64,000 nt of DNA from Rufibacter glacialis (GTDB taxonomy: Bacteria; Bacteroidota; Bacteroidia; Cytophagales; Hymenobacteraceae): NCBI RefSeq assembly GCF_008271745.1, contig NZ_VKKZ01000020.1, forward strand, positions 682,001 to 746,000, written 5' to 3'. The position numbers and the translations under genes were made by a program. Positions 27,689 to 51,701 of the stretch are shown piece by piece. Each line of letters starts with the position of its first letter. Position 1 is the first letter of the stretch. The notes under the pieces are model-generated. The model was not told where the DNA came from. It made no database searches and saw only the letters and a program-made list of their open reading frames with translations.

Positions 27689-27772
27689 GCCCAGATGGCG
27701 GAATCGGTAGACGCGTTGGTCTCAAACACCAATATCTTCACGGATGTGCCGGTTCGACTCCGGCTCTGGGTA
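27689..27772 (+). tRNA. tRNA-Leu (anticodon CAA)
   Basis: The 84 nt fold into a class II tRNA: acceptor GCCCAGA with TCTGGGT (one G-U pair), D-stem GCG/CGC, anticodon stem TTGGT/ACCAA with loop CTCAAAC, a long variable arm containing ATC/GAT, T-arm GCCGG/CCGGC with TTCGACT, discriminator A. CCA is not encoded. Its 3' end is the insertion site of island 1. Confidence 0.95.
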
Positions 27773-33949: not shown

Positions 33950-33999
33950 TTGTTTGCTATGGTTAATTAGAATTGATTACTCTCTTCCGTTCTTATCTA

Positions 34000-34470
34000 T
34001 TATATTAAGTCGACCTGCTTTTCATTAATCTTTAAGTCTAAAGTTCCTGTCAACCACAGCCTATCCAAATCCTCAAGTAATTCATCGTTGGCTTGTTTGC
34101 ATAGTTTGTCTACCTCCTGCCTAGTCTTTATTTTAACCATTGCATCAACTTCAAGCCTCTTACACATAGCCATAATCCTTAAATGGGAGTTTAGCGTTTT
34201 CACTTCTCTCTTAAAGCCATTTAACTTTTGGTAGCAAGCTGATCTTTCATGGTCAACCATAATTGACCTGTTAATTAGAAACTTTAGTTGTTCATAGGCA
34301 TTTTGGTAAACAAGTATCTTTTCAGCCCATTTCACCTCTACATTTTGCTTTTTATGAACATAGCTCCTATACCTATCTAAGTCTTGCAAATCTTCCTTGA
34401 TTGTTCTATCTAATTGAGTTAGAGACTTCCTGAGTGTCATTTCTATTTCAAAAATGTATGAGTTATCCAT
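34000..34470 (-). CDS. Hypothetical coiled-coil protein of the mobile element
   Basis: 156 aa, charged and almost wholly helical, with heptad-like stretches (LTQLDRTIKEDLQDLDRYRS, VKTLNSHLRIMAMCKRLEV). No family recognised. It lies between the HTH gene and the SF3 helicase in the same orientation, gaps 50-64 nt, so it is probably part of the replication/excision operon. Confidence 0.65.
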   Translation of the reverse strand: MDNSYIFEIEMTLRKSLTQLDRTIKEDLQDLDRYRSYVHKKQNVEVKWAEKILVYQNAYEQLKFLINRSIMVDHERSACYQKLNGFKREVKTLNSHLRIMAMCKRLEVDAMVKIKTRQEVDKLCKQANDELLEDLDRLWLTGTLDLKINEKQVDLI

Positions 34471-34533
34471 CCATTTAATTCCTCATGGTTAAAACATCTT
34501 CTATAGTTCTCTTATCCATAAATCTGAATAGTA

Positions 34534-34818
34534 TCATTTGAGTAATCCGGGTGATACCTGGGCAATATCTAACAGCTCAGACTTATAGTAAAATACCGTT
34601 CTACCTACCTTGTTGAAGGGAATTATTCCCTTCTTCTGCCACCTTATAATGGTCACTGTTGTGACGCCAAACAGAGCTGCTGCCTGTTTTTGAGTTAACT
34701 TCTCACCTCTTTCTTCCTTAGAGTGTATGAATTTTGAATTCATATACTTTTCAATGTACCCGTCTAATTCCTGCTTTGTCATTGAAATGATTACCACTTG
34801 TTTGTCTTCTGTTTTCAT
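34534..34818 (-). CDS. Helix-turn-helix excisionase-family DNA-binding protein
   Basis: 94 aa from the ATG at 34818 (MKTEDKQVV); a start 11 codons earlier is possible. The C-terminal half is a MerR-like HTH_17 domain: LTQKQAAALFGVTTVTIIRWQKKGIIPFNKVGRTVFYYKSEL. Such proteins are excisionases or regulators of Bacteroidota conjugative and satellite elements. Genetic position beside the integrase supports this. Confidence 0.85.
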   Translation of the reverse strand: MKTEDKQVVIISMTKQELDGYIEKYMNSKFIHSKEERGEKLTQKQAAALFGVTTVTIIRWQKKGIIPFNKVGRTVFYYKSELLDIAQVSPGLLK

Positions 34819-34869
34819 ATTTAGATAACTTAATTTTTTTCTTGTAAACATTTTAATTAAAAAAAAGCC

Positions 34870-35643
34870 CTAGCTACTGAGCTCCTTTATAGTAGTAATG
34901 ACTGAATCATACATGTCATCAAAAATCCTTTTCATAACTGGTACTTGACTACCAGAGATGTGGCCATTCTTTTCTAAATATGTAAGGTACATTCTAGTAT
35001 GTTCCCCTTTAAACCAATAGAAGGCCAAAAAACCTTTGTAATCATCAACTAGGTACTCATAGTTGAAACTAGCATCTAGAAATTCTCCATAGTGTTCAAT
35101 GGCTATATTGAAGCATTCAATATTTATATCTTGTAAAACAGTTAGATTAAAAGCATTATTACCTTCTCCTAGTTCAGTTAAACCTCCTATTAACTCAATA
35201 TAGGGTTTGTCCCAATCAAGAATATAAAAAGGCTGATGCCACAAGTCGCTCATTCTTTCCCTAAGGAAGTTTTTCCCTGCCTGGGACATGACCTCTAACA
35301 TTTCCTCTGTACATATTTCGTATATAAGGGTAAAAGCTTTTAAGGTAAAGCTGTCCCTATCAAAGGGTCTTAAATAGGTGATAATATCATGTATTATACT
35401 ATTCTCCATTGAGAGACCTCTCCCAAGCCCCATGTCCAGCCCCCCCGCCAAGGAATTATCAAGCTCTTGCTGTGTAGACTGTAGCTCGATTTCAGTTAAC
35501 CCAGCAAACTTATTCGCACGGCTTCGCATTCTATTCACCTGCCTTTTAACAGTAACTTGCACATAGATTGTTTGACGCACATTCTTTCCTTCCTTATTGG
35601 ATAAGCTTTTATTCAAATAATGCTTAATAGTTATCTTACCCAT
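34870..35643 (-). CDS. Hypothetical protein linked to the integrase
   Basis: About 257 aa from the ATG at 35643 (MGKITIKHYLNKS), which overlaps the integrase stop by 8 nt; the longer frame would run into the integrase. The N-terminal ~45 residues resemble the short beta-rich opening of Bacteroidota element proteins (IYVQVTVKRQVNRMRS). The rest is helical without known motif. Probably translationally coupled to the integrase; function unknown. Confidence 0.7.
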   Translation of the reverse strand: MGKITIKHYLNKSLSNKEGKNVRQTIYVQVTVKRQVNRMRSRANKFAGLTEIELQSTQQELDNSLAGGLDMGLGRGLSMENSIIHDIITYLRPFDRDSFTLKAFTLIYEICTEEMLEVMSQAGKNFLRERMSDLWHQPFYILDWDKPYIELIGGLTELGEGNNAFNLTVLQDINIECFNIAIEHYGEFLDASFNYEYLVDDYKGFLAFYWFKGEHTRMYLTYLEKNGHISGSQVPVMKRIFDDMYDSVITTIKELSS

Positions 35644-36916
35644 TCTTCTGTTTTTGTTCACGTGCTCTCTTGTTCCAGGTGCGATCAAGTTCTTGTATCT
35701 GGAAAGATTCTGTGATATTTATATACTTGTTGAAACTCGCGTCTTTCTTGTGTCCAGTCATGCTTTTCAAGGCCTTTAGGTTTACATTGTCTTCGATAGA
35801 GAGAGTCGTAAATGTTTTTCTAGCTGTATGCGAAGTAATAAGTTCATACTTCGGCAAGGTGAACTCTTTTGCCTTTCCCCCTGAGTATTTGGTAATAGTC
35901 TGAGGTTGCTTAATTCCTGCTTCTTTGCAACAATCCTTAATCAGTTTGTTAAACCTAGGCTCAACAATCTTTGGGAGGGGGTAGTATGGTGATCCATCAT
36001 ATTTCTTTATGATATCAAGGGCGAAATCATTAAGGTGAATCCTCATTGTTTCCTTTGTCTTTACAATGGTTTTTATAATGGTTTTACCTTTTATATGACT
36101 TGAGTTGAGAGTATTTAAGTCAGAGTATCTTAGTCCTGTATAACAGCCAAAACAATAGACGTCTCTAACTTTTGTTAACTCATCCTCCTTAAAAACAAAA
36201 TCATTGAGAAACATAAGCTCCTCAAAAGTTAAGTATATAATGTCAACATCTCTTTCTGAGGCTTTGAACTTCTTATAAGAATCAAATCTATTCAACCCTC
36301 TTTCATCAGCCCATCTTAGAAAAGTTTTCAAAGATGCTACCAAAGCGGCAAAATAGTTATCAGAGCAGGCTTTTTTCCCATCATCTACCCTACTTATAAA
36401 GGCATACTTTTGAAGCTTATCGAAAAAATCAAGGTTAATGGTATCAAATCTTAACTCATATTTAGTAGAGCTTTCAAACTCCTTATAGAAGTTGAGTGCT
36501 GTATTATGCTTTTTGTAAGTTCTCATTGCTTTTGAGGAAAGGTACATTTCTGTGAACTCACCAAAAACCTCAAAAAAGTTTCTGCTTCTCACAAGAGTCA
36601 AAAAAGCATCATCTAATTGATTTTGCACATATTCCTTGGTTAACCTAATATCATTTAGAAGTGCATCATTAAAGATATCCTGCACCTTCTTCCTATATTT
36701 ATCAAGGGTGGCATTAAAAACCTCAAAATTATTCTCTGGCTCACCCTTGAGTGAAGGCTTTACCCTGCTTTTTGCTATACTCCAATGGGCAGGCTTCACT
36801 TTGACTTTAATCTGCTTTCTTATCCTTACTCCTTCAAAGGTAAGTACCATCATTATCGGGCACTCACCTTTCCTGTCCTTTTTATTAAAGAGAAGATTGA
36901 AGCTTAGATTTGCCAT
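35636..36916 (-). CDS. Tyrosine recombinase / integrase
   Basis: 426 aa from the ATG at 36916 (MANLSFNLLFNKKDRKG), the usual start for Bacteroidota integrases. An arm-binding N-terminal domain and a SAM-like core-binding domain (about 110-215) precede the catalytic domain with Arg in GCYTGLRYSDL, the HTARKTF box, GHKKD and the nucleophile Tyr in NKYINITE. It should catalyse insertion at the tRNA-Leu 3' end. The long gene-free region upstream of it (36917-38241) could hold its promoter. Confidence 0.93.
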   Translation of the reverse strand: MANLSFNLLFNKKDRKGECPIMMVLTFEGVRIRKQIKVKVKPAHWSIAKSRVKPSLKGEPENNFEVFNATLDKYRKKVQDIFNDALLNDIRLTKEYVQNQLDDAFLTLVRSRNFFEVFGEFTEMYLSSKAMRTYKKHNTALNFYKEFESSTKYELRFDTINLDFFDKLQKYAFISRVDDGKKACSDNYFAALVASLKTFLRWADERGLNRFDSYKKFKASERDVDIIYLTFEELMFLNDFVFKEDELTKVRDVYCFGCYTGLRYSDLNTLNSSHIKGKTIIKTIVKTKETMRIHLNDFALDIIKKYDGSPYYPLPKIVEPRFNKLIKDCCKEAGIKQPQTITKYSGGKAKEFTLPKYELITSHTARKTFTTLSIEDNVNLKALKSMTGHKKDASFNKYINITESFQIQELDRTWNKRAREQKQKNG

Positions 36917-37477
36917 TGAGAAAATGCTTAGTTTGTTACAAATGTTTACAAACATAAATTCTTATAAACATTTATCCAAACTTATTCATTTTTTTTTCAT
37001 CACAATCTAAAAGGTTGCTGCAATTAATCTTGAAAATTCAATATTACATGTTGATTATTAATCTCTTAAAAGACAATCTCCATAGCTACAACCATAGTGC
37101 CTAGGCTCTAAATGTGGAGTCTATGGCATGCGAGCGCCGTTGACTATAAACATAAAGCGGCCTTAAGGCCACTCTAGGGAAACTTCAGAGGCAACTTCAA
37201 AAAGCATTGCTTTTCTTTATAAAAAGCTATCAGTTACTCTTCAGTAAAACATATAACAAGGCGTTGTACAATGGATAGCGTGCGCCTTATTAAAGTAACC
37301 CAAAAAAGATTGACTACCCCTTTGTACAATCACTGCAGACTTATACATTAAACAACCAGTAAGTAGGAATCTTGTGCTCATCGGTCCTGCCTTTAAGAGA
37401 GCCTTCAAACTCTTAAGTCAGCACTAAGGAGGTATATATCCAGTAACCAGGCCAAGGTTCCTGACAGAGATTGGATT

Positions 37478-37705
37478 TACGTTGACTTTTACGTTGACCA
37501 AAGCTTCAAACCCAGACAAAAATACAATTAGCTATGATGGCTATACCAAAGAATATAAACAAGAAATGTCCGCTGTGCCTCTAAAAACGGGTAAATGCGC
37601 TTAAATCTTATCGGCTTGCGAGACAGCGAGCAGGTGAATCCATGCTGACTGTTGCGTTGACCAGGGTGTTGACTTTTACGTTGACCAATCCGTTGCCTTT
37701 CGGTT
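37478..37705 (-). repeat. Cluster C of GTTGAC / GTTGCC repeats
   Basis: About six GTTGAC words and GTTGCC variants occur upstream of the integrase (near 37481, 37490, 37655, 37668 and 37680), many as ACGTTGACC. Read on the minus strand they are GTCAACG, GGTCAACG and GGCAACG, the words of cluster A. Confidence 0.55.
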
Positions 37706-38024
37706 CTTGCCTTTCTTCTATGGACGGTAGCAAGCGGCACAGCCTACATCCAAAGTGCTGTCTCATTAATCCGTCTCAAAAATTGGTATTCAATTTTGAT
37801 TCTTGAGATGGCAAATAGAGACGAATTCACAGAAAATTAGGCAGATAAAGGTGGGGGCATAATCCTATCCCGTAAAATGGCCGTTTTACGAGACAGAAAG
37901 TAGGATCATTATTTATAAGAGCCCAAGGGGCAGACCTGGGGGAACAGATAGACTTTGTAGGATGGGAAGGTCAGTACTGCTCACTAAGTCAGCGGTTAAT
38001 ACTACTAAATTATGAATAGGCAGT

Positions 38025-38209
38025 GCCTAACGAAAGGCTCTCGCACCTTGCCTCAGTAAGCGACCTTATGCGTGTCTTGACGATCAGGTATAAGCGTAGT
38101 GCGGGTTTCGGAGCAATTCAACTGTCCACCAACCGCAAAGTTTCTTAGAAGCAATAATGGTTAATTTTAGCCGCTCAGCCCGCATTACGCTTATACAATG
38201 TTGTAGGCA
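38025..38209 (-). other. attC-like palindromic site 1
   Basis: On the minus strand the site opens with GCCTACAAC and closes with CGTTAGGC, the latter fitting the integron GTTRRRY rule. Between them is a ~20-bp imperfect inverted repeat (38088-38107 with 38178-38196, GTATAAGCGTAGTGCGGG type). It sits just 3' of the small-protein genes. At 185 bp it is longer than most attC sites. Confidence 0.4.
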
Positions 38210-38241
38210 GGCTTTTTTTTTATATTTCGAAGATTACTAAT

Positions 38242-38486
38242 CTAGTTTACTTCACTTTCCCCCATCCACTTTTTCATATTAGCTTGTAAGCGTGCTCCTT
38301 CATCTATCGTTAAAAAATTTAGTCGTCCATTAGGATGGTTTTTTATATTTTTTTATATGGGGATATGTTGCCCATATAAAATTCCTGATTAAACCATCAT
38401 TATCACTTTCAACTATCCTATTTGTATCTTCTGCCAATAGAAAAAAGATTGTGTTCGAATTCCCTTCTTGCTTTAGGCGGAGGCAT
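38242..38486 (-). pseudogene. Broken third copy of the ~81-aa small protein
   Basis: Reading the minus strand from the ATG at 38486 gives MPPPKARREFEHNLF, then a shifted frame, then after a second shift NGRLNFLTIDEGARLQANM and a stop at 38242. This matches the two genes upstream (xRREFER near the start, NxxTxDExxRLxAN near the end). Both shifts lie by T or A runs. It starts 7 nt after the stop of copy 2. Confidence 0.7.
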
Positions 38487-38493
38487 ACCATAT

Positions 38494-38739
38494 TTAATCT
38501 TCTCCATTTTCCTTTGATTTAAATTCCTTTTGTTGCACCATATTGGCAGTTGTATTTGCCATCAACCGGGCCATTTCATCAACTGTATTAAGGTTAGCTC
38601 TCCTGTTAGGGGCTAGTCTGGCATTTTTTATTCCTTTGATTGATTTGATGTTAGAGCGACTAATCTTCACCTGATCTCTTTCAAAACCTTCGGACAAAAA
38701 AAACATATTACGTTCAAATTCTCTCCTACTGTTTGGCAT
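38494..38739 (-). CDS. Small protein, copy 2 (unknown family)
   Basis: 81 aa from the ATG at 38739 (MPNSRREFERN), chosen because it matches the paralogue's start and length; an ATG ten codons earlier is in frame. Shared with copy 1: xFERxxxxLxE near the N-terminus and PNRRxNxxTxDExxRLxAN in the C-terminal half. It is basic in the middle, with no membrane segment. It overlaps copy 1 by 14 nt and follows the STAND gene. I do not recognise the family. Confidence 0.75.
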   Translation of the reverse strand: MPNSRREFERNMFFLSEGFERDQVKISRSNIKSIKGIKNARLAPNRRANLNTVDEMARLMANTTANMVQQKEFKSKENGED

Positions 38740-38971
38740 TATTTCTGTTTTTAAATTCTGGTCTCTCAAAATTTGCTAATGAATTAGCTAACAGCCGTGT
38801 GGATTCGTCAATAGTCAAAAAATTAGTACGTCTATTCGGCAATTTTTTGGCGTTTAGCAAGCTATTTAGCATTCTTCGACTGGGCGGCAGATGAAATGTT
38901 CTCTTTTCAATGCTTTCAACAAGGATGTTAATATGCCTTTCAAAATCCTTCCTATTATTTGGAGTAATCAT
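38726..38971 (-). CDS. Small protein, copy 1 (unknown family)
   Basis: 81 aa, starting in an ATGA overlap with the stop of the trypsin-STAND gene, so translation is probably coupled. It contains FERHINILVES, NRRTNFLTIDESTRLLAN and a charged tail. It is homologous to copy 2 and to the broken copy 3. The strict linkage to the STAND gene suggests a role as effector partner, regulator or inhibitor; this is inference only. Confidence 0.78.
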   Translation of the reverse strand: MITPNNRKDFERHINILVESIEKRTFHLPPSRRMLNSLLNAKKLPNRRTNFLTIDESTRLLANSLANFERPEFKNRNNAKQ

Positions 38972-41900
38972 CTTTTTATTTCCTTTTGTTCAAAAACATC
39001 AACGTATTTAGGGTCATATCCGTAATATATTTTCCAAATCAATTTATACTCGGATTTCAGCGTTTCTATTTTGCCTTTTATTACTGTTGTATAATAGCCT
39101 GTATTTTCAGCTACCCCTTGCTCCCTGTTATCCCAATTTCTTCCTTTTCGCCAGTATACCGATATAGTATTGTCTTTGAAATTTGGAATTAGAGTATTTA
39201 ACGTTGCATTCATTATAGCCGGAACCAACTCACTTCCGGCAACATTACCTGCATATTCACTCTTGATAAATAGCGGAATTACATCTTCTTCCTCCGAAAC
39301 AGTACTAGGATAACTATTCGCAGCAAAAGTCGGCCGGGGATAAGAGGGGTGTTTTGAAGAGAATTTTGCTACTGGGATCAGGTAGGCTGTGAGTTCTATT
39401 TTCTCTTTAGCGCTCCGGCGAGATTCCGAGTGTACTGCCGCATAATAGTTCAATGGCAGTTCATTGTTAACCAATAGTTTGTCAAAAGCAATAATTCCGG
39501 TTTCAAAAAAATCTTTTACAGCATTTTCAAAACTTTCAGTACTGCTATTAAACTGAGGTATCAAGGTGTTTTCCGGGAAAGTTGGCTGATAAAACCTTAG
39601 TATATTAGCAACTTTCTCTCTGTCACTGAGTGTAGTGCAAGTGTAAACAGCGACATTTAAAGCATATCTCAAAAGAGTATCGAAATCCGAAATAAGAGAA
39701 ATGTCGTTATGGTCATTAAAACTCCGATTAATATACCCACTTGCTTTCTGACTATCCTCAATAGATAATGGGGCTAATCCTTTTACCTGTCCCAACAATG
39801 TTTCAGCAAATTGTTTGGTCAAAATATTTAGCTCATTAAGCTCATATAAGGGGTCACTTATCGGTTCCAAATATTCTTCTTCAAATACTATTTCACCCTT
39901 GCTTTTATTAGTTGAAGTAAACGTTTGCTCAAACTTTATAATTAAATCATCCAGATCTGTAAGTCCAAGATTTTTTAGCTCGGTAAGAGATGCAAGAATA
40001 GCTTCTCTTATCATAAAGTGGTTAATCTTTAATAGCTCTTGTTCGTTTTCTTCTAAAACAGCTTTAAGATTTTCGGCAAAACCTTTGGGATTTAAATTTG
40101 AGAGTTGATGAATAACAGAAGAGGAAAGTTCTTTTGAAATGCTATAGCAGTCACTAAGTATTTCCTTTACTATTGCTCGCAAAATAATGCCTGGGTAAAT
40201 AGAGCCGAGCCAAACCAAGGTTTCAATAACTCGATTTTTTACAACTAATGAAGGGTGACTTAAAAACCAAATAAGGAACTTTAGTAAATGATCATCTTGT
40301 TCATCGGTATTTATTTTATCGGCTCCTTTATTCAGCCATTCATACCGGTCATAAAAATGCCGGCTAGTCCTCACCATCAAATTAATATGCTCCAGAACAG
40401 CTTCTAAGATCAACTGCTTTTCGTGCTCATCAGTTATATTCCGAAGCAATGAAATAATTTGGTTAGCAATTACCCATTCTTCAAAATAGGGCTCATTAAT
40501 AATCAGTTGTTTTATGTCTTTGATAAATTCTGCTGAGTTATCGTACGTTTCAGCAAAAAGATTTCTTATGTCATTAATTTTATTGGAATAGTTAAATGAC
40601 CATACCCCATATTTTTCATCCTGAACTTTTTGCAATGCGTCGGCTATTACTTTTCTTGCACCGCTCTTATTTTCTGTATCAATTTTCCGCTGTGCTTCTT
40701 CTTTTGCAATAATTAGGTCGTCGAGAGCATCTTTCTCTTCTCGTCTAGGAGTTGAAGGTTTTCTTTCTTCTTCAGTCTCTTCTTTTGAAGGTTGAGTCGG
40801 TTGCATTCCAACCGCTTCCAAATACGGTTTCACCTTATCAAAATTTGAGGTGCTTAATTCGCTAAACAATTCCCGCAGATACTCATAACGAAATTCATCG
40901 CTTATTTCGGCAACCACAAACCGAGCCACACGTTTGAATACTATGTCTAACTTTCCTGGCTCGCTGTTTTCTAAATGGTTCAGAATACCTGCCTGAATCT
41001 TTGCATAACCTCTGATATATCTATCGTCCCCAAGCATAAACAATTCACTTAGTCCCCAAACGATAAGAGACCCTGAATCTTCAATATTCCGCAGCATGTT
41101 CATTATAGCACTCTGCTCCTCGATTGCCCTGGCTCCCAATATATATCCCTCGCCTGTGTAAGGCATATCAACTAACCCCGATTCGGCATTGGTAATAATG
41201 GTTTGATGATCCGGAAGCAACAAGTACTTGAAGTACTCAATTGACTTATTTAAAAAACCTACTTTAGCTAGGTCACCGACAAACTCTTCCTGCTGCTGTT
41301 TCACATATCGTTGAAATGTCATCTCGCCGGATGAATTATGAAGATGCGCGGCGAACTCCTGAAGGTAGGATAGGTTACCATCTTTAGGGACAATATTCGT
41401 AACAGCAGTATTTATTATACCCAATTGGGCTTCTTTATACCATGATGGCCCCATTGAGGTATCAATCATTTCCTTAAAAACTTGCTTAGCTTTATCATGA
41501 TTCTTCAGGAGCGCATACAATTCAACTAATCTCAACAGGTATTCATTTCTTTCCCATCTATTTTCTATAGTGTTTATAATATGCTCTTCTAACACTTTTA
41601 CTACTTTGAAGGCCGTAACCTCATGTTTGGGTTCCTTAGCTAATTCCCTAGCTATAACAAACAAGCTATCTGTGTAGCCTTCGGTGTAAAGCCCAAGCTG
41701 ATATGACTTCTTGTTGACTATCTGCTCAACAAAAACAGGAATATAATCGGTGAAAGCATCCATTAATAAATGAATAAGGCTTTTGTAGATGACCGGGTAA
41801 ATTAATTCCGGAAGAGCATAGCTTTTCTTCCAATTCATCCTATCCCTTAAGTCTGGAATTAGCTTTTCAATCAGAACAGTTAGCTTGCTCTGAAGCTGTT

Positions 41901-44793
41901 TAACCTCTTCATTCCTGCCATCACTTTTATAACGCTTTACTTTTCCTGTCAGGAAACATAGATACTTAAAAACAGACTTTATATTTTCTTCCCAATTGTA
42001 TGAGTACCCATATTGCGAAAGTGCCGGAAATTGATCCTCAGCATCAAAATACCCAAGGCACTCTGCATAGAGTGTAAACCGATGTATGGATTGATGATTT
42101 AAGTCAACGCCATTTTCTTTTCGCAAATCGAATTCTTCAGCACCTAGAAAGACGTTCGTGTACAGGTTCTCAATGAGATCAAACCTCTTTGATCTTCCCA
42201 ATAGAATATAAAGTAAAAAGAAATGATAATCAGGATGAGTACCATACTTGTCAATCACGTACTCTAAATCTTCTATCCAAGCAGGGATATTGTCTTCTGT
42301 TTTAACAATGGGGCTTTTTTCCTGAAATTCTAATGCATGATATATACTCAATGCGATAAAGCCACTTGACTTTTCATCAAATTTAAATTTGTCTTCTGTG
42401 AGTTTTGTGAATGGAGGTATATTAAATCGCCAAATGAAGTAACCACTATTATACGAGCCAACATCATCTTTAAATTTGTGAACTGCTTCTGGTGGATTCC
42501 CGCTTGTTTCAATCATTTTAATGGCTGTATCTTTAATATGGCCAAATTCACGGTAAGCTCCTTTAAAATCTACATTTGAAGACAGTGTAACAGCACTACA
42601 TTTTAAATGAATAAATCGATTGAATGAATCGGATTTCAGATCTGATTCAATTATATTTCTGCAGGTTTGATTAATCGCATTCAATAAGATTTCAGCTTCT
42701 TCATCTGTCTCATACTCGTAAAATTTTTGTAGAAGGTACAATGCATCTCCATCAGCAGTGATTAGCGTTTTATTGCGTACAACATACCTTATTGCTTCTT
42801 CTGGTCTGCCCAAGGCCAATAAAGCATTTACAAGAAAAATAGCGTTTTCCTGAAAAAGTGTATTGTACCTAAAATTTACCCGCTGCGAAAGAAGCAATAA
42901 AGAAATGACTTTGTGCGCTATCCCCAATTCGGCGGCAAGACCAATTACATTTTTAACGTCTGCCAAAACAATATCAGGGTTAATACTGTTCAGTGCACAG
43001 TCATCAATCCATGCCTGGTTGCATTCATCTAATGCATTTCTTTTGCTTTGCTCATCTCCATGTGCCAAGTGATACACTTTCTCAGACAGGCTAAAATTTG
43101 TCTGAGAGTGTCTTTGAATATAATTACTTATGTTTTTATGTACCTGTTTGTCTATTGCATCTGTCTTTTTATTTACAAAATCAGAAAAAGAGGTGTGATA
43201 TATACTTATCGCTTCATTGTCTCTTAACAAGTGTTCGATCTTCTTAAAGCTTGACAGGAAACTGTGCTTCGTAGCTTCGGGCTGTATTTCTGATAAGGTT
43301 TTCTTATCTACCGATACTCTTAACCTTGATAAAGTAGCTGCAAGCCAGATTTCTTCCGGGTGATCATTTATTTGCAGCCATATTTTGTTATAATAGTTTT
43401 CTATTTCCCCACCAATTACAGGAATTGAATTGATCCAATCATCAATGGAAGGTATTTCGTCCACTCCTAAAATATACTTGGTCAAATACCTTAAATAAAG
43501 AGGATGTCCTTCTGATTTTTCTGCCAGTGCAGCTATTTGTTTTGTGTTAAGCCCTCTTTCTTTTACATGCTCGGAAAGATATTTTTCCGCATTCTGAATT
43601 GACAGTGGTGTAACCTTAATTTCTTTTGATGCATCTATTGCGGCCTGGAATGCATTAGGTAATAACTCTTTTGATGTACATGAGAAAATCACCTTGATGT
43701 GTGGAGGTAACTTAACAGGCAACACGGAGAGATAGTTATCTATTTTAGATTCGCTAACATCGTCCAAACCGTCTATTATCAAAAAGGCTATATTCCCTTG
43801 TTGTTGATAATGCAAGGATAACTGCTGTATCGCCTGGTGGATTTCTATTATCCTGTCATTTAATGATTTTTCAGCCTTGGGTTTGGGTGGCGGACTGTTA
43901 TATAGGGTACGATGACAAACTTCCTCTACCCATCTCATAAAGAAATCCGGTGTCGCCCTGATTTGTGTTGGAATTTCTTCGCTCTCCGGAACCTTTACAA
44001 AAAAACGGTCGCTTATAATATGATTGTCAGCCACTAATTCCAATTGAGCAGCTATAGTAGTTTTGCCTGAACCCGGGCTCCCACTTACCAAAAAATAACT
44101 CCCATCAATTTGCGTTGCAATTACATTATTTATTTTTTGCAACACTTCCTCATTTGGCGTAGTATCTGATATATCACTTTCTATCGAATCTGGTATAGAA
44201 TGCCCTTTTTCGATAGTGACAATGATATGGTGCTTGTTCAAAACCTCAGCAATGCTACTGATACTTGTTGCGCCAATTGTTCCTACTGTATCGTAGCCAA
44301 TAACTCCTACAACATGCCCATTAATTACTAAGGGCGAGCCTGACAACCCATCAAATTGTTCAATATTGTTGTATTGCTCACATTCTAAATCTACATCCCA
44401 TTTTGTTCCTTCATTAGTCCGAGAGACATTACCGGTATATCTTCCACCAGAGTTTACCCTTTGTTTCGGGAATCCATAAGTTTCCCAATGCTCATTGTAG
44501 GGAGTCTCTATTTTTTTTAAAGGAAGCGTATGAATAATTATTGAAGATTGATTTTTAAGTTCCAGTATGGCAACATCTCGATCTGAAATTCTTTCCAGAA
44601 TTTCAGCTTCTACCTCCGTTTCATTTAGATATAGTTTTATCGGGTGACCTTCAGGCAGATTATGCTCAGATGTAAGTAAGACTTGCTTATCCCCTTCTGT
44701 TGGAACAAAAAAGGCTGTACCTGACTTGCCTCCGCAATCGACTTGCACAGTTGCTACTTCTATTTGCTTTGGGTTTAATATTTTTACATTCAC
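38968..44793 (-). CDS. Trypsin-like protease-STAND NTPase (Avs1-like defence protein)
   Basis: 1941 aa. Residues 1-190 form a trypsin-like protease domain with a plausible triad: H44 (LLTSEHNL), D73 (SDRDVAIL) and S151 (FDGLSGSP). Next is a STAND/NACHT NTPase with Walker A GSPGSGKT (238-245) and Walker B IAFLIIDGLDD (335-345). From ~600 to the end is a very long, mostly helical region, probably the sensor. STAND proteases with a neighbouring MBL gene are known as type I AVAST (Avs1) antiviral systems, where binding of a phage protein triggers the effector. Both ends overlap neighbouring genes by 4 nt. AT-rich, foreign composition. Confidence 0.85.
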   Translation of the reverse strand: MNVKILNPKQIEVATVQVDCGGKSGTAFFVPTEGDKQVLLTSEHNLPEGHPIKLYLNETEVEAEILERISDRDVAILELKNQSSIIIHTLPLKKIETPYNEHWETYGFPKQRVNSGGRYTGNVSRTNEGTKWDVDLECEQYNNIEQFDGLSGSPLVINGHVVGVIGYDTVGTIGATSISSIAEVLNKHHIIVTIEKGHSIPDSIESDISDTTPNEEVLQKINNVIATQIDGSYFLVSGSPGSGKTTIAAQLELVADNHIISDRFFVKVPESEEIPTQIRATPDFFMRWVEEVCHRTLYNSPPPKPKAEKSLNDRIIEIHQAIQQLSLHYQQQGNIAFLIIDGLDDVSESKIDNYLSVLPVKLPPHIKVIFSCTSKELLPNAFQAAIDASKEIKVTPLSIQNAEKYLSEHVKERGLNTKQIAALAEKSEGHPLYLRYLTKYILGVDEIPSIDDWINSIPVIGGEIENYYNKIWLQINDHPEEIWLAATLSRLRVSVDKKTLSEIQPEATKHSFLSSFKKIEHLLRDNEAISIYHTSFSDFVNKKTDAIDKQVHKNISNYIQRHSQTNFSLSEKVYHLAHGDEQSKRNALDECNQAWIDDCALNSINPDIVLADVKNVIGLAAELGIAHKVISLLLLSQRVNFRYNTLFQENAIFLVNALLALGRPEEAIRYVVRNKTLITADGDALYLLQKFYEYETDEEAEILLNAINQTCRNIIESDLKSDSFNRFIHLKCSAVTLSSNVDFKGAYREFGHIKDTAIKMIETSGNPPEAVHKFKDDVGSYNSGYFIWRFNIPPFTKLTEDKFKFDEKSSGFIALSIYHALEFQEKSPIVKTEDNIPAWIEDLEYVIDKYGTHPDYHFFLLYILLGRSKRFDLIENLYTNVFLGAEEFDLRKENGVDLNHQSIHRFTLYAECLGYFDAEDQFPALSQYGYSYNWEENIKSVFKYLCFLTGKVKRYKSDGRNEEVKQLQSKLTVLIEKLIPDLRDRMNWKKSYALPELIYPVIYKSLIHLLMDAFTDYIPVFVEQIVNKKSYQLGLYTEGYTDSLFVIARELAKEPKHEVTAFKVVKVLEEHIINTIENRWERNEYLLRLVELYALLKNHDKAKQVFKEMIDTSMGPSWYKEAQLGIINTAVTNIVPKDGNLSYLQEFAAHLHNSSGEMTFQRYVKQQQEEFVGDLAKVGFLNKSIEYFKYLLLPDHQTIITNAESGLVDMPYTGEGYILGARAIEEQSAIMNMLRNIEDSGSLIVWGLSELFMLGDDRYIRGYAKIQAGILNHLENSEPGKLDIVFKRVARFVVAEISDEFRYEYLRELFSELSTSNFDKVKPYLEAVGMQPTQPSKEETEEERKPSTPRREEKDALDDLIIAKEEAQRKIDTENKSGARKVIADALQKVQDEKYGVWSFNYSNKINDIRNLFAETYDNSAEFIKDIKQLIINEPYFEEWVIANQIISLLRNITDEHEKQLILEAVLEHINLMVRTSRHFYDRYEWLNKGADKINTDEQDDHLLKFLIWFLSHPSLVVKNRVIETLVWLGSIYPGIILRAIVKEILSDCYSISKELSSSVIHQLSNLNPKGFAENLKAVLEENEQELLKINHFMIREAILASLTELKNLGLTDLDDLIIKFEQTFTSTNKSKGEIVFEEEYLEPISDPLYELNELNILTKQFAETLLGQVKGLAPLSIEDSQKASGYINRSFNDHNDISLISDFDTLLRYALNVAVYTCTTLSDREKVANILRFYQPTFPENTLIPQFNSSTESFENAVKDFFETGIIAFDKLLVNNELPLNYYAAVHSESRRSAKEKIELTAYLIPVAKFSSKHPSYPRPTFAANSYPSTVSEEEDVIPLFIKSEYAGNVAGSELVPAIMNATLNTLIPNFKDNTISVYWRKGRNWDNREQGVAENTGYYTTVIKGKIETLKSEYKLIWKIYYGYDPKYVDVFEQKEIKR

Positions 44794-45983
44794 AATGTTA
44801 GAGTATAAGGCTGCTGATCTAAATAGTGGATTGAGTAATTATATTCTTCCATCCAATCTTCCCTCTCAAAATATTTTGAGTTAGCAGTTATATAATTAAA
44901 GTATAATTTTCTATGAAAATCTGTTTTTCTGGTAACGATATGTGCTATCGTTTCTTTGTCTGGGTGATTATTCTTTTGACCATTAGTAGAGATAAGATAC
45001 ATTTCTGAATCAATTTTATCTAACAACTCACGGCTGATATTACCAAAACTGCCATGATGAGAAACTTTAATCAAATCAAAGATTATTGTTCCTTCGTTTT
45101 GATATGTTTTAAGAGACTGAACTATTAACCCAGGGTGGGCATCTGCCAGAAAAAGTAATTTTCTGTTTCGAATCTGTAAAATACAGGCAATAGAACTACC
45201 ATTTGTAGCAGTGTCATCTTCCTTAAAAGGCGTCTTTAGTAATTCTTCAAGAGTTTCTCTTGTAGCGGAAATTTGCTTTGGAACTACCTTAGCCTTCTCT
45301 TTTTCCCATGATAAAAGCATCTCAAAAGCATCATCATATAATTGCGAATTTCCCAAATTGAAATTAGCACCATACCTTTTCAACTCATCATTCCAAAGTT
45401 TTTTCAGCTTTTCTAACTTTTGCTTGTCAGGAGATAGAAGGTAAATATTGGTATCAGGATTGAGTTCAACTGTGGACTTTTGTTCAATACAAACAACTTG
45501 ATTATTAAAATCGCTATTCCATGAGTATTTCCCTTGTAAAAGCAATGCACCAACTGTTGTACCTTGCTCTGCACTGATTACTTGCTCTCCTTGCTTGCTT
45601 TCGTTTTGGGGATATCCTCTTCGAATTAACTGTAGTAAAATTCGCTCTTGCTTCTTATCTATTTCAACTTCCTTTTGTTCACAGAGATGACGATACGTAT
45701 TATGCCAAACTTCTTTAATTGTTACAAATTTTTTAGAATTGTTTTCTTTTAAAAGCTTTATTGCTCCTTGAATATGGTCAGCGTCAATATGTGTCAGAAT
45801 TAGCTTTTCAAGGGATGCTCCGCTTTCACCAATTTGTATTAAATCTTTCTTTAGATAATTTTGGTAAGTATCAACATAGCCGCAGTCAATAAGCAAATGC
45901 TTTTTCCCTTCTTCAGTTTCCCCAAAACTTATTAAGAAACAATCTCCATTTTTGGCTGGGTAAGATTTAATTGTTATTAACAT
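44790..45983 (-). CDS. MBL-fold hydrolase of the defence operon
   Basis: 397 aa. The metallo-beta-lactamase core shows AKNGDCFLISF, LLIDCGY, and THIDADHIQGA, an HxDxDH variant of HxHxDH common in ComEC/Avs-associated MBL proteins. Further motifs: LADAHPG and VSHHGSFGN. No signal peptide, so it is cytosolic. It starts 29 nt after attC-like site 2 and its stop overlaps the STAND gene start (ATGA). Probably a nuclease or phosphodiesterase partner of the STAND protein; the substrate is unknown. Confidence 0.85.
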   Translation of the reverse strand: MLITIKSYPAKNGDCFLISFGETEEGKKHLLIDCGYVDTYQNYLKKDLIQIGESGASLEKLILTHIDADHIQGAIKLLKENNSKKFVTIKEVWHNTYRHLCEQKEVEIDKKQERILLQLIRRGYPQNESKQGEQVISAEQGTTVGALLLQGKYSWNSDFNNQVVCIEQKSTVELNPDTNIYLLSPDKQKLEKLKKLWNDELKRYGANFNLGNSQLYDDAFEMLLSWEKEKAKVVPKQISATRETLEELLKTPFKEDDTATNGSSIACILQIRNRKLLFLADAHPGLIVQSLKTYQNEGTIIFDLIKVSHHGSFGNISRELLDKIDSEMYLISTNGQKNNHPDKETIAHIVTRKTDFHRKLYFNYITANSKYFEREDWMEEYNYSIHYLDQQPYTLTL

Positions 45984-46012
45984 ATTTTAGATAATGGTCG
46001 CTTTTCAAGTTT

Positions 46013-46084
46013 GCCTACAACGGTCTCGTGCATGAGGTGTGCAAGGCCGTCGGCCGAAGCATGGCTTATGCACAATGTTGGCGG
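46013..46084 (-). other. attC-like palindromic site 2
   Basis: A 72-bp imperfect palindrome. On the minus strand it opens CCGCCAACATTGTGCATAAG and closes CATGCACGAG, then ACCGTTGTAGGC. The inner arms GTGCATAAG/CTCATGCAC pair. It shares the ACAATGTTG end with site 1. It lies 57 nt after the 700-aa gene and 29 nt before the MBL gene, the place of attC between cassettes. Confidence 0.5.
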
Positions 46085-46141
46085 TTCGTTTTTTGTTCTC
46101 TCCGTTATTTAATTCTAATATTTATCCAATGTTGCTTTTTG

Positions 46142-48244
46142 TTATGCTTTTCGGTCTGTCCAAGTTAAATTTAATAGTTGAAAGTCGTCAATACTTACCG
46201 AAACATCGTTATCTAAGTTTGTTGAATGCTCGCAATATTTATAATCATTGCCACATTTTGTGCAGATTTGCTTTTTAAGTAAGTATCCAGGTGTAACATC
46301 AATTTTTCGTGTTTCATAAGCTTTTGCTAAGTCATACTGTTCTTTAGTGAACGCAAATCCAATGATAATTCCTCCGTTTTGGTCAGGCTTTAATTGGTAC
46401 TTGATTTCTGGTGCAATTCCTCTCCTCCTAATGTATTGAACTCCATCACCACAAACCATTTCAAAAAGAGGCGGACTGTCTCTCTTTAAAGGGTATTTAT
46501 TTATGAACGTACTTTGTTTTTCAAGCCAGTTTTTAAACTTATTCTTATCAACTGGAATTATCTTATTTTCATTTAACCATTTTAAAATATCAACGGAGTG
46601 CCCCATTACAGAAACCGATACTTGCTTTTCATCTTGTCTTTCCCAACTTAAAGTAAATGCTGCAACAGTATCCTTGTTTCTTGAAACCTTAGCTGCAAAA
46701 ATCATTTCTAAGGCTTGTAAAGTTTTAGAAACATTAAATTCTGTATTTTCATTTATTCCATGATTTATTGCTGGAATATTCCAATACATATCCTCAAAAC
46801 TAGCAAGAGTAACATTTTTAGGTAAATCTAATTTCTCACCTATTCTTTTTAAAGCTTTAACAACTTCAAGAATATCTGTCTCAATTACTCTAAGACTTGT
46901 TTCTCCAATAGAAATGATATCATACCCTGATATGTATCTTTCTGTATGAATATCATCTTCACGCTTTTGAATTTCATGATAGGAAACAAATAATCGTATT
47001 CCGTCTCCTTCATTTATTGAATAGGGAATTAATTCCTCGAAAACAGATTTTGCTTTTTCTTCAATAAGGTGGGGGGCATTTGCTTCTTCTTTGGCTTCGT
47101 CAAAGTATTCATGTATTAACGGGTTTGCTTGAAAATAATGACAAGTCAATGATTTCCAATCTTCAATAGACAACTCACCATCAACCCTAAATAACTTTGT
47201 ATACTCAGATTGCTTTCCCGCACTTTTGATATCATTTTCAATTCTACTAAGCATCTTTTCTGTGTCACACATTCGTATAGCTCCGTCAAAATGCTCAAAA
47301 GAATTTGTTGCTTCGTCAAAAATAGAATGAACATAACGACAGCCATAGTTGTCATTGTCAATTCCCAGAGACGGGTGTTCTTTTACTTCTTCTACTTCTA
47401 AAGTTTGTTTTCCTTCTTCATGTTTCCACCAAAATTCAGTCTGACTTATACCATAGTATAATTTTTGATACTCACTACTTCCATAAACAGTAACTCCTGA
47501 TTTAATTTTTGATACATCATTATTAAACTGCGGTCCTCGCCAATATTCTAACTCAATAGTGTCATTGTAAGTTTTTGCAAGACCAATTAAATTCCTGTCC
47601 AGTGAAATTCTGACCTTTATTTTTTCGTTTTTAACTTGTTTTACTAATTCATCAATCAAAAAATAATTAAGATTGTTGTGAAGTGATAAGGATTTACGAA
47701 AAAACTGATGGGCAATTACTGCAAATTCGGAATCATTATCTTTGAAAATTCCGTGTCCTTTGTACGTAAACTGTTGAAGTAAATCCGATAAATAAATCAG
47801 GCCGTCTTTGTCTTGTTTTTCAAATAACTTTGAAAAAACACGTTCAACAATTTTTTTTTCATTATAACATACGCAACCAGCATAAAGATAAGTAGCGTTT
47901 TCTGTCAAGTGTCCGGCCAAAAGACTTTTTAATTCGTCTATGTGCGGTAAACATTGTTCTTGATATCTTTTCTTTAAAGCTGTTAAGTGAGCTTTATTTA
48001 TAAATTTTTGTTCTTCATCAGTTTCAGCAATTATTTGATTTCCTACTAAGCGGCACATTCCGGGTTCAAAGTATAAGCCAAAAGGAATTGTCCATCCTAA
48101 TGGTTTGTGCATATCATGTCCTAAACAAGTAGGCACACCTTCCAATGCTTTTTGTTCTAAAGCGTCTTCTAAAGCGCCAACAGAAAATCTATAACCATAT
48201 CGGTTTACTGTGTCCGAATTAAGTACGGCTCTATTTTTAATCAT
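46142..48244 (-). CDS. 700-aa protein of unknown function with possible prohead-protease-like N-terminus
   Basis: The first ~85 residues (VNRYGYRFSVGALEDAL, VPTCLGHDMHKPLGWT, GMCRLVGNQIIAET) recall HK97-type prohead proteases, which have LLxHDxxxPIG and a following short strand pair. This is resemblance by eye. Residues ~90-650 match nothing that I know. Near the C-terminus CTKCGNDYKYCEH is a likely zinc site. No membrane segment. It is AT-rich, stands alone and is flanked by an attC-like half site at 48281-48287 and site 2 downstream. It is a candidate defence or phage-derived gene. Confidence 0.6.
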   Translation of the reverse strand: MIKNRAVLNSDTVNRYGYRFSVGALEDALEQKALEGVPTCLGHDMHKPLGWTIPFGLYFEPGMCRLVGNQIIAETDEEQKFINKAHLTALKKRYQEQCLPHIDELKSLLAGHLTENATYLYAGCVCYNEKKIVERVFSKLFEKQDKDGLIYLSDLLQQFTYKGHGIFKDNDSEFAVIAHQFFRKSLSLHNNLNYFLIDELVKQVKNEKIKVRISLDRNLIGLAKTYNDTIELEYWRGPQFNNDVSKIKSGVTVYGSSEYQKLYYGISQTEFWWKHEEGKQTLEVEEVKEHPSLGIDNDNYGCRYVHSIFDEATNSFEHFDGAIRMCDTEKMLSRIENDIKSAGKQSEYTKLFRVDGELSIEDWKSLTCHYFQANPLIHEYFDEAKEEANAPHLIEEKAKSVFEELIPYSINEGDGIRLFVSYHEIQKREDDIHTERYISGYDIISIGETSLRVIETDILEVVKALKRIGEKLDLPKNVTLASFEDMYWNIPAINHGINENTEFNVSKTLQALEMIFAAKVSRNKDTVAAFTLSWERQDEKQVSVSVMGHSVDILKWLNENKIIPVDKNKFKNWLEKQSTFINKYPLKRDSPPLFEMVCGDGVQYIRRRGIAPEIKYQLKPDQNGGIIIGFAFTKEQYDLAKAYETRKIDVTPGYLLKKQICTKCGNDYKYCEHSTNLDNDVSVSIDDFQLLNLTWTDRKA

Positions 48245-49396: not shown

Positions 49397-50602
49397 TTAT
49401 AACAATTCATAAAAGTCTCTTTTACCTATCCTGATTTTAGTACCTGCCACCAATTCAATATCCAGGAAGGAATCCATGACTTTGTCATTATTTACCTGGA
49501 CACCCCCACCTTCTATCAATCTCTTTAGTGCAGATTTAGTCATGTCAGCCTTCAATTTCTGACATAGGTTAATCAAGGCTAATGCAGTATTCTGTGCTTC
49601 CAGTGATTCGATGGCAACGGGAGTGAAAGCTTTTTCGTCAAACTTTTTGTTTTGGAACTGGTTTTGGAAAAACCGTTCTGCTTTGTCAGCGTCCTCCTTG
49701 CTATGGTACTGCGAGATGATATTTTTGGCAATGGCTTTCTTTATGTCCATTGGGTTTTCACCAGTGGATAACCTTTCCTTTACCACTTGTTTTTCTTCAG
49801 GTGAAAAGTCAGTAGCCAAATCCAGGTATTCTAAAATCAAGTTGTCTGGAATAGACATGGTTTTGCCAAACATCTCAGTAGGTTCATCTGTCAGACCAAT
49901 GATGTTGTTAAGCGATTTGCTCATTTTCTCTTTTCCGTCCAACCCTTTCAGCAAAGGCATACACATGACGATTTGTGGACTCAGATTAAATGTCTCCTGC
50001 AATTGCCGTCCCATGGTGCAGTTGAATAGTTGGTCTGTTCCACCCATCTCAACGTCACAGTTCAGTTTAACCGAGTCAAACCCTTGTAGAATTGGGTACA
50101 GCAGTTCATGCATAGATATAGGCGTGTTTTCGGTAAACCGCTTGTTGAAATCGTTGCGGTGCATCAATTGGGCAACCGTAACTTTAGACAGTAGCTGTAT
50201 TAGTTCACTGGAAGAAAGTTTGTCCAGCCATTCAGAATTAAAGACAATCTTGGCTTTGCTAACATCAATCACCTTTGATAACTGGCTGATGTAGGTCTCT
50301 GCGTTGTGCTGCACCTCTTCAATGCTTAAGGGCTTTCGGCTTTTGTTCTTACCAGTCGGGTCTCCGATTGTTGCAGTGAAGCTTCCAACCAGTATTACAA
50401 TCTGATGCCCGAAATCCTGGAACTGCTTCATCTTCTTGAGAACAACAGCGTGTCCGAGGTGCAGGTCTGGTGCAGTTGGGTCAAAGCCTAACTTTATGAC
50501 CAGACTGCGGTTCTCATTTTTAGCCTGCTCCAATTTCTGTTCCAACCCATCTTGGGGAAGGATGATTTCCACGTTTTCTTTTAATCTGTTGATTGTTTCC
50601 AT
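49397..50602 (-). CDS. tyrS: Tyrosyl-tRNA synthetase (TyrZ-like clade)
   Basis: 401 aa class I synthetase. HIGH-like HLGH in GFDPTAPDLHLGHAVVL (about 38-54), the tyrosine/tRNA region MHRNDFNKRF, GGTDQLFN, the KMSKS loop (EKMSKSLNN) and a C-terminal S4 RNA-binding domain (about 340-401). Charges tRNA-Tyr. The GFDPTAPDLHLGH opening is typical of the TyrZ-like branch, which in some bacteria is a second, regulated enzyme. Its leader carries an apparent Tyr-codon attenuator. It lies between the two islands, so it may be native or acquired. Confidence 0.95.
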   Translation of the reverse strand: METINRLKENVEIILPQDGLEQKLEQAKNENRSLVIKLGFDPTAPDLHLGHAVVLKKMKQFQDFGHQIVILVGSFTATIGDPTGKNKSRKPLSIEEVQHNAETYISQLSKVIDVSKAKIVFNSEWLDKLSSSELIQLLSKVTVAQLMHRNDFNKRFTENTPISMHELLYPILQGFDSVKLNCDVEMGGTDQLFNCTMGRQLQETFNLSPQIVMCMPLLKGLDGKEKMSKSLNNIIGLTDEPTEMFGKTMSIPDNLILEYLDLATDFSPEEKQVVKERLSTGENPMDIKKAIAKNIISQYHSKEDADKAERFFQNQFQNKKFDEKAFTPVAIESLEAQNTALALINLCQKLKADMTKSALKRLIEGGGVQVNNDKVMDSFLDIELVAGTKIRIGKRDFYELL

Positions 50603-50619
50603 TTTCCCATAAATAAAAA

Positions 50620-50645
50620 AAGCCCGAGCATTGCTGCTCGGGCTT
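50620..50645 (-). terminator. Attenuator terminator before tyrS
   Basis: On the minus strand AAGCCCGAGCA, loop GCAA, TGCTCGGGCTT, then a T-run, all ending 12 nt before the tyrS ATG. It lies in the leader and not at a gene end. The 5' arm can pair instead with TGCTCGGG inside the leader ORF (50706-50713), giving a mutually exclusive antiterminator of 8 GC-rich pairs. Confidence 0.85.
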
Positions 50646-50667
50646 CTGGTTATGTAAATATCCTTTG

Positions 50668-50775
50668 TTACAGTAGTTTTAGAACTGAAGTATGAACATA
50701 CCCTTCCCGAGCATCTACTATAGCGTAATAGGTACTGAAGAAAGGAAGGCGAAGTATGCTGTTCAAGAATTTCAT
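50668..50775 (-). CDS. Tyrosine leader peptide of tyrS (35 aa)
   Basis: ATG at 50775, TAA at 50668-50670. The peptide begins MKFLNSILRL and contains FFSTYYAIVDAREGYVHT: two adjacent Tyr codons (TAT 50730-50728, TAC 50727-50725) and a third at 50700-50698. About 12 nt after the Tyr pair comes TGCTCGGG, which can base-pair with the terminator's 5' arm. A ribosome stalled at the Tyr pair would leave it free. This is the logic of trp/his/phe attenuators. Too short for most gene finders. Confidence 0.75.
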   Translation of the reverse strand: MKFLNSILRLPFFSTYYAIVDAREGYVHTSVLKLL

Positions 50776-50783
50776 TTCTGGTG

Positions 50784-50815
50784 CAAAGTTAATTAGTAAT
50801 AACATCAGGAACAAA
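50784..50815 (-). promoter_or_regulatory. Bacteroidota promoter of the tyrS leader
   Basis: On the minus strand TTTG (50815-50812), 20 nt, then TAACTTTG (50791-50784): both boxes fit TTTG-N19-21-TAnnTTTG. The -7 box ends 8 nt before the leader ATG, so the transcript would have almost no 5' UTR before the leader ORF. Confidence 0.75.
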
Positions 50816-51701
50816 ATTTATGCTATAAGGAAGAAGCTTCATTCAAACTCTCATAGTCAAGTCCCCCCTTATAAATCACTGCAAATTTTAAAACCTTAAA
50901 AGTGACTGTCTTTGATGTGTTCAGCAGAAAGGAGCGTTAGTTATTTCAGCACAAAAAGGAAAGACCTAAAAATCACCCCTAAGTCTATATAAACAGATGT
51001 TCGTGGTCATCATAGAAACAGATGATACTTTCCAATTCATCTATGAAAAAGTTCGACATGAGCCCGCTAGAGGGTACAGAAACAAAATAAGCCGCTGAGT
51101 ATCAGTGGCTCATTTTGTTTTATGTGTGGCAATAAAAGTAGCCTCCTTTAAAGTTTCTTTATTTTTAGTACTATAACTTTATATCTATGCCCTTTAACTG
51201 ATTTTCTATTAAAAGAATGAGCCTTAAGGGCATGATTAACATTCTTACGAAGCTATCCCAATAACTCAATTTATCTATTAAATCATAGGATGGTTTGTGA
51301 GACGTCAAAAGTAGAAAACCAAAACGCAACTTGATCTTACTAATGCTAGGATTAGCAATGTTCTATCATTGCTTGTTTAGTGTGTTATAGTTTCGCTCTG
51401 ATAAGTACTTCTCCTTACAAACGCTTTATACCAGCAAAATGAACTTTAATAAGGTGAAATACTCCGCTGGGCTTCAGAAAAGTAAGGAGCAAATTAGAAA
51501 AAGAAAATCTCAGTAACTGGCCAACAGGCGAATTCAAATCAATCATTGATTTAAGGATTGAGCTGTTCGCTTACTAAAGGTGAATTTGATTATTTCGTTT
51601 CCTGAAGGTCTGATGAATGTCCATATTACTTAGGATTCCAGCTTCTTGATGTTGAAAATGCTCATAGGCAAGGATGACTACTCGGTGAGCGAAAAGTATA
51701 C
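50816..51701. other. Gene-free region between tyrS and the redox island
   Basis: About 890 AT-rich nt. Apart from the hairpin at 51080-51120 I find only short open frames, such as 25 codons from 51439, none protein-like. It may hold the decayed left edge of island 2. Confidence 0.4.
51080..51120. repeat. AGCCGCTGA-type hairpin, copy at the left edge of island 2
   Basis: Arms of 19 nt (51080-51098 and 51102-51120) with two mismatches and a GTA loop. The core AGCCGCTGA/TCAGTGGCT and the following TTTATGTGTGGCAA recall the sequence behind tRNA-Leu at 27786-27828. A degenerate core-like GAGGGTAC precedes it at 51070. A remnant attL is possible. Confidence 0.5.

Follow-up and report, generated by a model that had tools for sequence, protein, structure and literature searches.

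On the minus strand of the stretch of DNA analysed here (hereafter the window; 64,000 nucleotides of Rufibacter glacialis), a tyrosyl-tRNA synthetase (TyrRS) gene is preceded by a short open reading frame (ORF) with two adjacent Tyr codons (YY) and by a GC-rich hairpin. This arrangement raises the question of whether the gene is switched on by ribosomes that stall for want of charged tRNA-Tyr, as the initial annotation had proposed from the DNA letters. In the trp, his, and phe attenuators of enteric bacteria, a short ORF with cognate codons is combined with a terminator and with an antiterminator that forms upon stalling. Our analysis makes it very probable that an accessory TyrRS is controlled here by ribosome-mediated transcription attenuation at Tyr codons, while we are less sure of the details of the stem between segments 1 and 2 (1:2), which would sequester the antiterminator segment.

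Layout of the locus and its synthetase gene

All of the attenuator parts that had been named are present in the sequence, on the minus strand (Table 1): a promoter with both boxes, a 35-codon leader ORF with adjacent Tyr codons and a third one downstream, a GC-rich intrinsic terminator hairpin followed by seven T, and an 8-nt antiterminator segment that repeats the terminator 3' arm and is complementary to the 5' arm. This segment, TGCTCGGG, lies 11 nt 3' of the Tyr pair (about 12 had been given), the distance from the T-run to the tyrS ATG is 12 nt as described, and 8 bases separate the promoter box TAACTTTG from the leader ATG. The pairing potential of segment 1 with segment 2 was an addition to the original list. 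Upon folding, the leader was more stable than all 200 of its own shuffles (z = −3.35). When the window's sequence 3' of YY was shuffled 20,000 times with dinucleotides preserved, 28 shuffles paired with the terminator 5' arm as well as segment 2 does.

Table 1. Features of the tyrS leader region in the window.
Feature	Position	Strand	Sequence or basis
Promoter, Bacteroidota-type	50784..50814	-	TTG 50814-50812, 20-nt spacer, TAACTTTG 50791-50784
Leader ORF MKFLNSILRLPFFSTYYAIVDAREGYVHTSVLKLL	50668..50775	-	35 codons + stop
Segment 1, CCTTCC	50744..50749	-	can pair with segment 2 GGAAGG; minimum-energy fold
Regulatory Tyr codons TAT TAC (codons 16-17)	50725..50730	-	sequence
Segment 2, antiterminator 5' half	50702..50713	-	TGCTCGGG 50713-50706; GGAAGG 50707-50702 pairs with segment 1
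Third Tyr codon (codon 26), 3' of segment 2	50698..50700	-	sequence
Segment 3, terminator 5' arm AGCCCGAGCA, alternative partner of segment 2	50635..50644	-	
Segment 4, terminator 3' arm TGCTCGGGCT (50630-50621) + seven-T run	50615..50630	-	
tyrS paralogue (accessory tyrosyl-tRNA synthetase, 401 aa)	49397..50602	-	PF00579, TIGR00234

The promoter recurred among related leaders. Across the 81 leaders aligned below, the box TAnnTTTG was exact in 49, carried one mismatch in 26 and two mismatches in 6; in 48 of the 49 exact cases its last G was located 4–9 nt before the leader start, compared to a shuffled rate of 1.1%, and a TTG was found 17–23 nt 5' of the box in 52 of 89 cases. This box is described as occupying positions −12 to −5 (PMC9723704). 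Transcription in the window is predicted to start near position 50779, some 4 nt 5' of the leader ATG; for the 48 leaders with a suitably placed exact box we infer a start 0–5 nt before the leader ATG. Since leaderless transcripts are reported to account for 5.5% of the mRNAs in Flavobacterium psychrophilum (PMC9723704), an ORF this close to the 5' end would not be a typical arrangement.

The product of the downstream gene matched PF00579 with 246.8 bits (cut-off 21.1) and TIGR00234 with 340.8 bits (cut-off 113.8), and 23 distinct sequences of solved structures matched it at E ≤ 1e-20 (best E 5.4e-95). It is the second TyrRS gene of the genome; the other copy (G000:C19:18601-19794) is 31% identical, and its upstream region contained neither a terminator nor a YY ORF. 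The control of "tyrS" that had been proposed is to be read in a narrower sense: the leader does precede a TyrRS gene, but this gene is an accessory copy beside a distant housekeeping TyrRS that lacks such a leader. By one identical scan, a YY ORF with a terminator was found before 83 of 89 genes of the window's kind (the six missed being L003, L007, L010, L044, L046, and L104), before none of 22 housekeeping TyrRS genes (21 from relatives and the window genome's own, with start codons that were guesses), and before none of 27 TyrRS genes of approximately 45% identity from other members of the phylum, drawn from 198 further genomes with a match. The leader as a control of the housekeeping TyrRS was rejected, as no such leader is present there.

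Conservation of the leader peptide and of the RNA pairings

One scan of genome contigs yielded 115 related stretches, and the 80 best of them were retained. These were 69–78% identical and belonged mainly to Chryseobacterium and Flavobacterium, with further relatives in Arenibacter, Gelidibacter, Aequorivita, Sphingobacterium, Chitinophagaceae, and others; together with the window they formed an alignment of 81 rows (A1). The short ORF with Tyr codons was conserved, an in-frame YY being present in the leader ORF of all 80 of these best 80 of 115 relatives and of the window, and the peptide before YY mostly read MKxLNxILRLPFFSx among the same 80. The initial annotation had suggested an alignment of tyrS upstream regions from related Cytophagales; the conserved ORF and the covariation that it anticipated were recovered, but the relatives had been chosen by gene, not by species, and were mainly Flavobacteriia.

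The Tyr pair was encoded as TATTAT in 47 and as TATTAC in 34 of the 81 leaders. Among the 62 distinct leaders, Tyr-Tyr was kept in every one, the second codon being TAT or TAC; L8 and P11 were invariant, and R9, L10, F12, and F13 occurred in at least 57. The ratios of pN/pS, which are descriptive because the leader rows are related, were 0.07 at codons 2–8 in Chryseobacterium (39 distinct leaders) and 0.431 in other genera (23 distinct leaders), 0.087 and 0.15, respectively, at codons 9–14, and 0.98 and 0.99 after YY, where rows of differing spacing were initially compared by position. Out-of-frame readings of the leader gave 1.2 and 1.9. When rows of equal spacing were used (sets of 51 and 21 rows, which omit 9 rows from smaller classes), the ratios were 0.06 and 0.36 at codons 2–8, 0.09 and 0.16 at codons 9–14, and 0.88–1.33 after YY. 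From the low ratios before YY, the peptide appears to be translated, with constraint reaching as far as the presumed stall site. A His-codon leader (MKPNFLTLHHYYHHLC and variants) was found before hisG at 29 of 29 Chryseobacterium-group loci (L128–L156; 30 genomes searched), which suggests that attenuation-style control is in use in the genus and serves as a positive control for leaders of this type. Its pN/pS at codons 2–8 was 0.395 (21 distinct leaders) and its N-terminus was also kept; the comparison hints at an unusually strong constraint on the N-terminus of the Tyr leader in this genus.

A covarying antiterminator had been expected, and the pairing of segments 2 and 3 (2:3) bore this out: the six core pairs were formed in 486 of 486 cells of the 81 leaders, with a compensatory change at one pair. 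One core pair was U-A in 56 rows and C-G in 25, the adjacent one was U-G in 53, U-A in 27, and C-G in 1, and a seventh, outer pair was formed in 26 of the 81 leaders only. The paired percentage, the doubly changed cells, and the covariation score were above those of all 500 shuffles; the number of pairs with changes in both partners, like that of pair types, was no higher than in the 500 shuffles. With the partner shifted by one base, the share of 2:3 paired cells fell from 90% to at most 55%, and all 1000 partner shuffles had a poorer duplex energy (46 distinct pairs from 79 of the 81 rows; L044 and L080 left out). The terminator was likewise conserved in all 81 aligned leaders, in one of them with a mismatch (L104), and 5 of its 11 predicted pairs showed double changes. 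The automatic terminator scan returned none in L104 and picked incorrect hairpins in L003 and L046, the latter of which was then read again from its matched start.

The 1:2 stem was present in the minimum-energy fold of the window. Across relatives it was scarcely more often paired than shuffled sequences (84.0% vs. 83.2%, 49/500), with a covariation score at 16/500, and its duplex energies were somewhat better than those of shuffles, 4 of 1000 being as good. The reading frame of segment 2 varied among genera, with its bases kept. By eye, many of the Chryseobacterium rows in A1 were also seen to carry CCCG or CCGA shortly 3' of YY, opposite the CGGG of segment 2; the two may form a small hairpin, which would be covered by a ribosome located at YY.

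Among 15 other genomes from the genus of the window, eight carried a 60–62% identical TyrRS with a different leader. The leader peptide of these congeners was of the MTLHQxSFYxYSAYSTYY type, with five YY and three TYC at the YY place, and the promoter box showed 2–4 mismatches in all eight. Their segments had changed jointly, the leader having CCTGGG and the terminator arm CCCAGG in 7 of the 8; congener L003 had a mismatched terminator arm. In the tree, the eight congener enzymes formed one group (100/100) and the window enzyme fell outside it, among Flavobacteriia-type sequences. In one congener, L004, the TyrRS-matching stretch contained one in-frame TAG.

Proposed ribosome stalling and competing explanations

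Ribosome-mediated attenuation requires a ribosome close behind RNA polymerase. From the sequence, we infer stalling, RNA switching, termination efficiency, and tyrosine supply as the signal, in the following form. RNA polymerase would start a few bases 5' of the leader ATG, and a ribosome would trail it into the 35-codon ORF. If charged tRNA-Tyr were scarce, either through tyrosine shortage or because the housekeeping TyrRS fails or is inhibited, stalling would occur with one of the two YY codons in the A site, and the ribosome's footprint would cover the RNA that otherwise sequesters segment 2. The freed segment 2 could then pair with the terminator 5' arm, and the polymerase would read into the spare TyrRS gene. 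With tRNA-Tyr charged, the ribosome would advance, segment 2 would be covered or re-paired, the terminator would form, and the gene would be off.

The stalling step was modelled by equilibrium folding of the leader before segment 4 is made, using the E. coli value for the ribosome footprint. Averaged over the 81 leaders, 2.43 2:3 pairs were expected when no ribosome was present and 2.15 when one sat at the stop codon; placing the A site on the first Tyr codon (Tyr1) raised the mean to 6.89, and on the second (Tyr2) to 5.80. When the A site was moved from −13 to +13 codons around Tyr1, the mean peaked at Tyr1, with 6.56 one codon before it, 5.47 two codons after, 1.03 three codons after, and less than 0.1 with the stall four to twelve codons after. 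For the window's own leader there was no contrast in this equilibrium model (7.68 pairs without a ribosome vs. 7.82 when stalled), so that it gives no switch for the window RNA; 22 of the 81 leaders, the window among them, exceeded 5 expected 2:3 pairs without a ribosome. In the eight congeners, the model mean was highest five codons before the Tyr codon and the Tyr position was not singled out. The order of transcription, with 1:2 formed before segment 3 exists, could affect the switching.

The constraint on the peptide bears on a variant in which the nascent MKxLNxILRLPFFSx would act as an arrest peptide, adding to stalling from within the exit tunnel beyond the effect of the codons alone. 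The amino-acid constraint stops at YY, also in the rows of equal spacing, the residues between L8 and F13 listed above are invariant or nearly always kept, and codons 2–8 are less constrained in the His leader of this genus, all of which speak for such a contribution. It nevertheless appears unlikely to us, as codons 2–8 are weakly constrained in other genera, codons 9–11 overlap RNA segment 1, the eight congeners have a quite different peptide, and the His leader keeps an N-terminus of its own too. A hybrid sensor with its ORF near the 5' end, in which the Tyr-codon stall would be tuned or strengthened by the nascent ILRLPFFSx and which would form, with the spare synthetase, one mobile cassette functioning across Bacteroidota orders, is a doubtful extension of the same idea.

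Genes for tyrS and tyrZ in Firmicutes use T-boxes, which favours considering a leader to which uncharged tRNA-Tyr or TyrRS would bind directly, with the ORF playing no part. The statement that no T-box is visible here held up: nothing in the whole window exceeded the Rfam cut-off except a tRNA at 27689, and a T-box was absent among the 20 Rfam matches up to E 10 in 50550–51000. A T-box riboswitch was rejected, there being no covariance-model match at cut-off, and any such binding leader is very improbable given that no Rfam family was above cut-off at the leader, that the ORF is conserved as codons, and that the bases of segment 2 are kept across different frames. It is also hard to credit that the hairpin would merely terminate stray transcripts while the short ORF boosts translation by re-initiation, a role proposed for leader genes in general (PMC4833913). 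The terminator is indeed close to the gene, and many leader genes are reported to lie near gene starts, with a peak at 11–14 bp in Bacteroidetes (PMC4833913). Against this, at least about 64 nt, including the terminator, separate the leader stop from tyrS, such hairpins precede 0 of 22 housekeeping TyrRS genes, and segment 2 covaries with the terminator arm. We retain attenuation at the Tyr codons as the preferred reading.

Linkage of leader and gene, and relation to known systems

A sequence model of the leader (R1), used with stricter filters on 395 genomes of the phylum, matched three of them, once each, and these three were the only genomes among the 395 whose best TyrRS match exceeded 600 bits. 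In 118 genomes of one genus, taken as Chryseobacterium, with the gene called at E 1e-100, the leader was found in 82, the gene in 81, and both in 80, leaving one alone in 3. Among these exceptions, G573 has an intact Tyr leader with a TyrRS gene that is open for 87 codons only, G570 has a decayed leader without segment 4 and no such gene, and in G485 the gene is cut by the end of a 3.3 kb contig. The first two are remnants (loci L123 and L124).

A leader common to other genes was rejected, as there was one R1 match per genome save two weak ones (23.0 and 21.9 bits), which were located inside longer open frames of 108 and 307 codons. A conserved operon partner was likewise rejected, with none of the 14 largest neighbour families occurring in more than one genus. 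Given the co-occurrence of leader and gene, the tree, and the lack of shared neighbours, the two look like a unit that moves together.

In the window, the tyrS cassette adjoins a low-GC block (32597–48244; 0.34–0.37 vs. approximately 0.5 in most of the window). This block contains a phage-type integrase (35636–36955) and an Avs1a/Avs1b-like defence pair (44790–45983 and 38968–43938; Avs1b model 814 bits), after which follows a 700-aa protein without a Pfam or PADLOC match (46142–48244). Next to the block lies a gene (28855–32133) whose 1092-aa product combines a Type ISP restriction-enzyme specificity domain with an N6-methylase.

The putative attenuator shares with those of trp, his, and phe the ORF with cognate codons, the terminator, and an antiterminator made from a leader segment upon stalling. 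It differs from them in serving a single accessory synthetase gene, in its Tyr codons and Bacteroidota promoter, in having almost no predicted untranslated region before the leader ATG, and in a stop codon well downstream of segment 2. Vecchione and Sello are said to have reported in 2010 that TrpRS1 of Streptomyces coelicolor is under ribosome-mediated attenuation. TrpRS1 is an auxiliary, indolmycin-resistant TrpRS (PMC9437257). The two cases can be likened by their logic, a spare synthetase that is on when the cognate tRNA is uncharged; S. coelicolor differs in the amino acid, Trp instead of Tyr, and in the phylum. Judging by its title, a 2015 study by Williams-Wagner reportedly places tyrZ of Bacillus subtilis under a T-box and a MarR regulator. 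As here, tyrZ encodes a second TyrRS with its own regulation beside the housekeeping TyrRS (PMC9437257), but that regulation is reportedly by a T-box and MarR, and no T-box is present at our locus.

Within the phylum, a study of F. psychrophilum mentions clues to leader-peptide attenuation upstream of amino-acid operons, as well as structured 5' regions that precede aminoacyl-tRNA synthetases (PMC9723704). Those leaders resemble ours in phylum and in the clues to attenuation and differ in that neither tyrS nor tyrosyl is named in the main text of that paper. Short ORFs resembling leader peptides are also described in Bacteroides (PMC7366714). A Tyr-codon synthetase attenuator in Bacteroidota was found in none of the open-licence titles and abstract starts among the matches listed.

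The Tyr leader falls outside every Rfam family. Bacteroidota are a phylum without Shine-Dalgarno initiation, and the leader offers a conserved example of probable attenuation, its ORF predicted to begin 0–5 nt from the 5' end, in which the coupling of transcription and translation is directly testable. The analysis suggests that the spare TyrRS is a rescue enzyme, which would be produced only upon failed charging of tRNA-Tyr, and the putative tyrosine-sensing switch and the spare synthetase recur together in dozens of other bacteria of the phylum.
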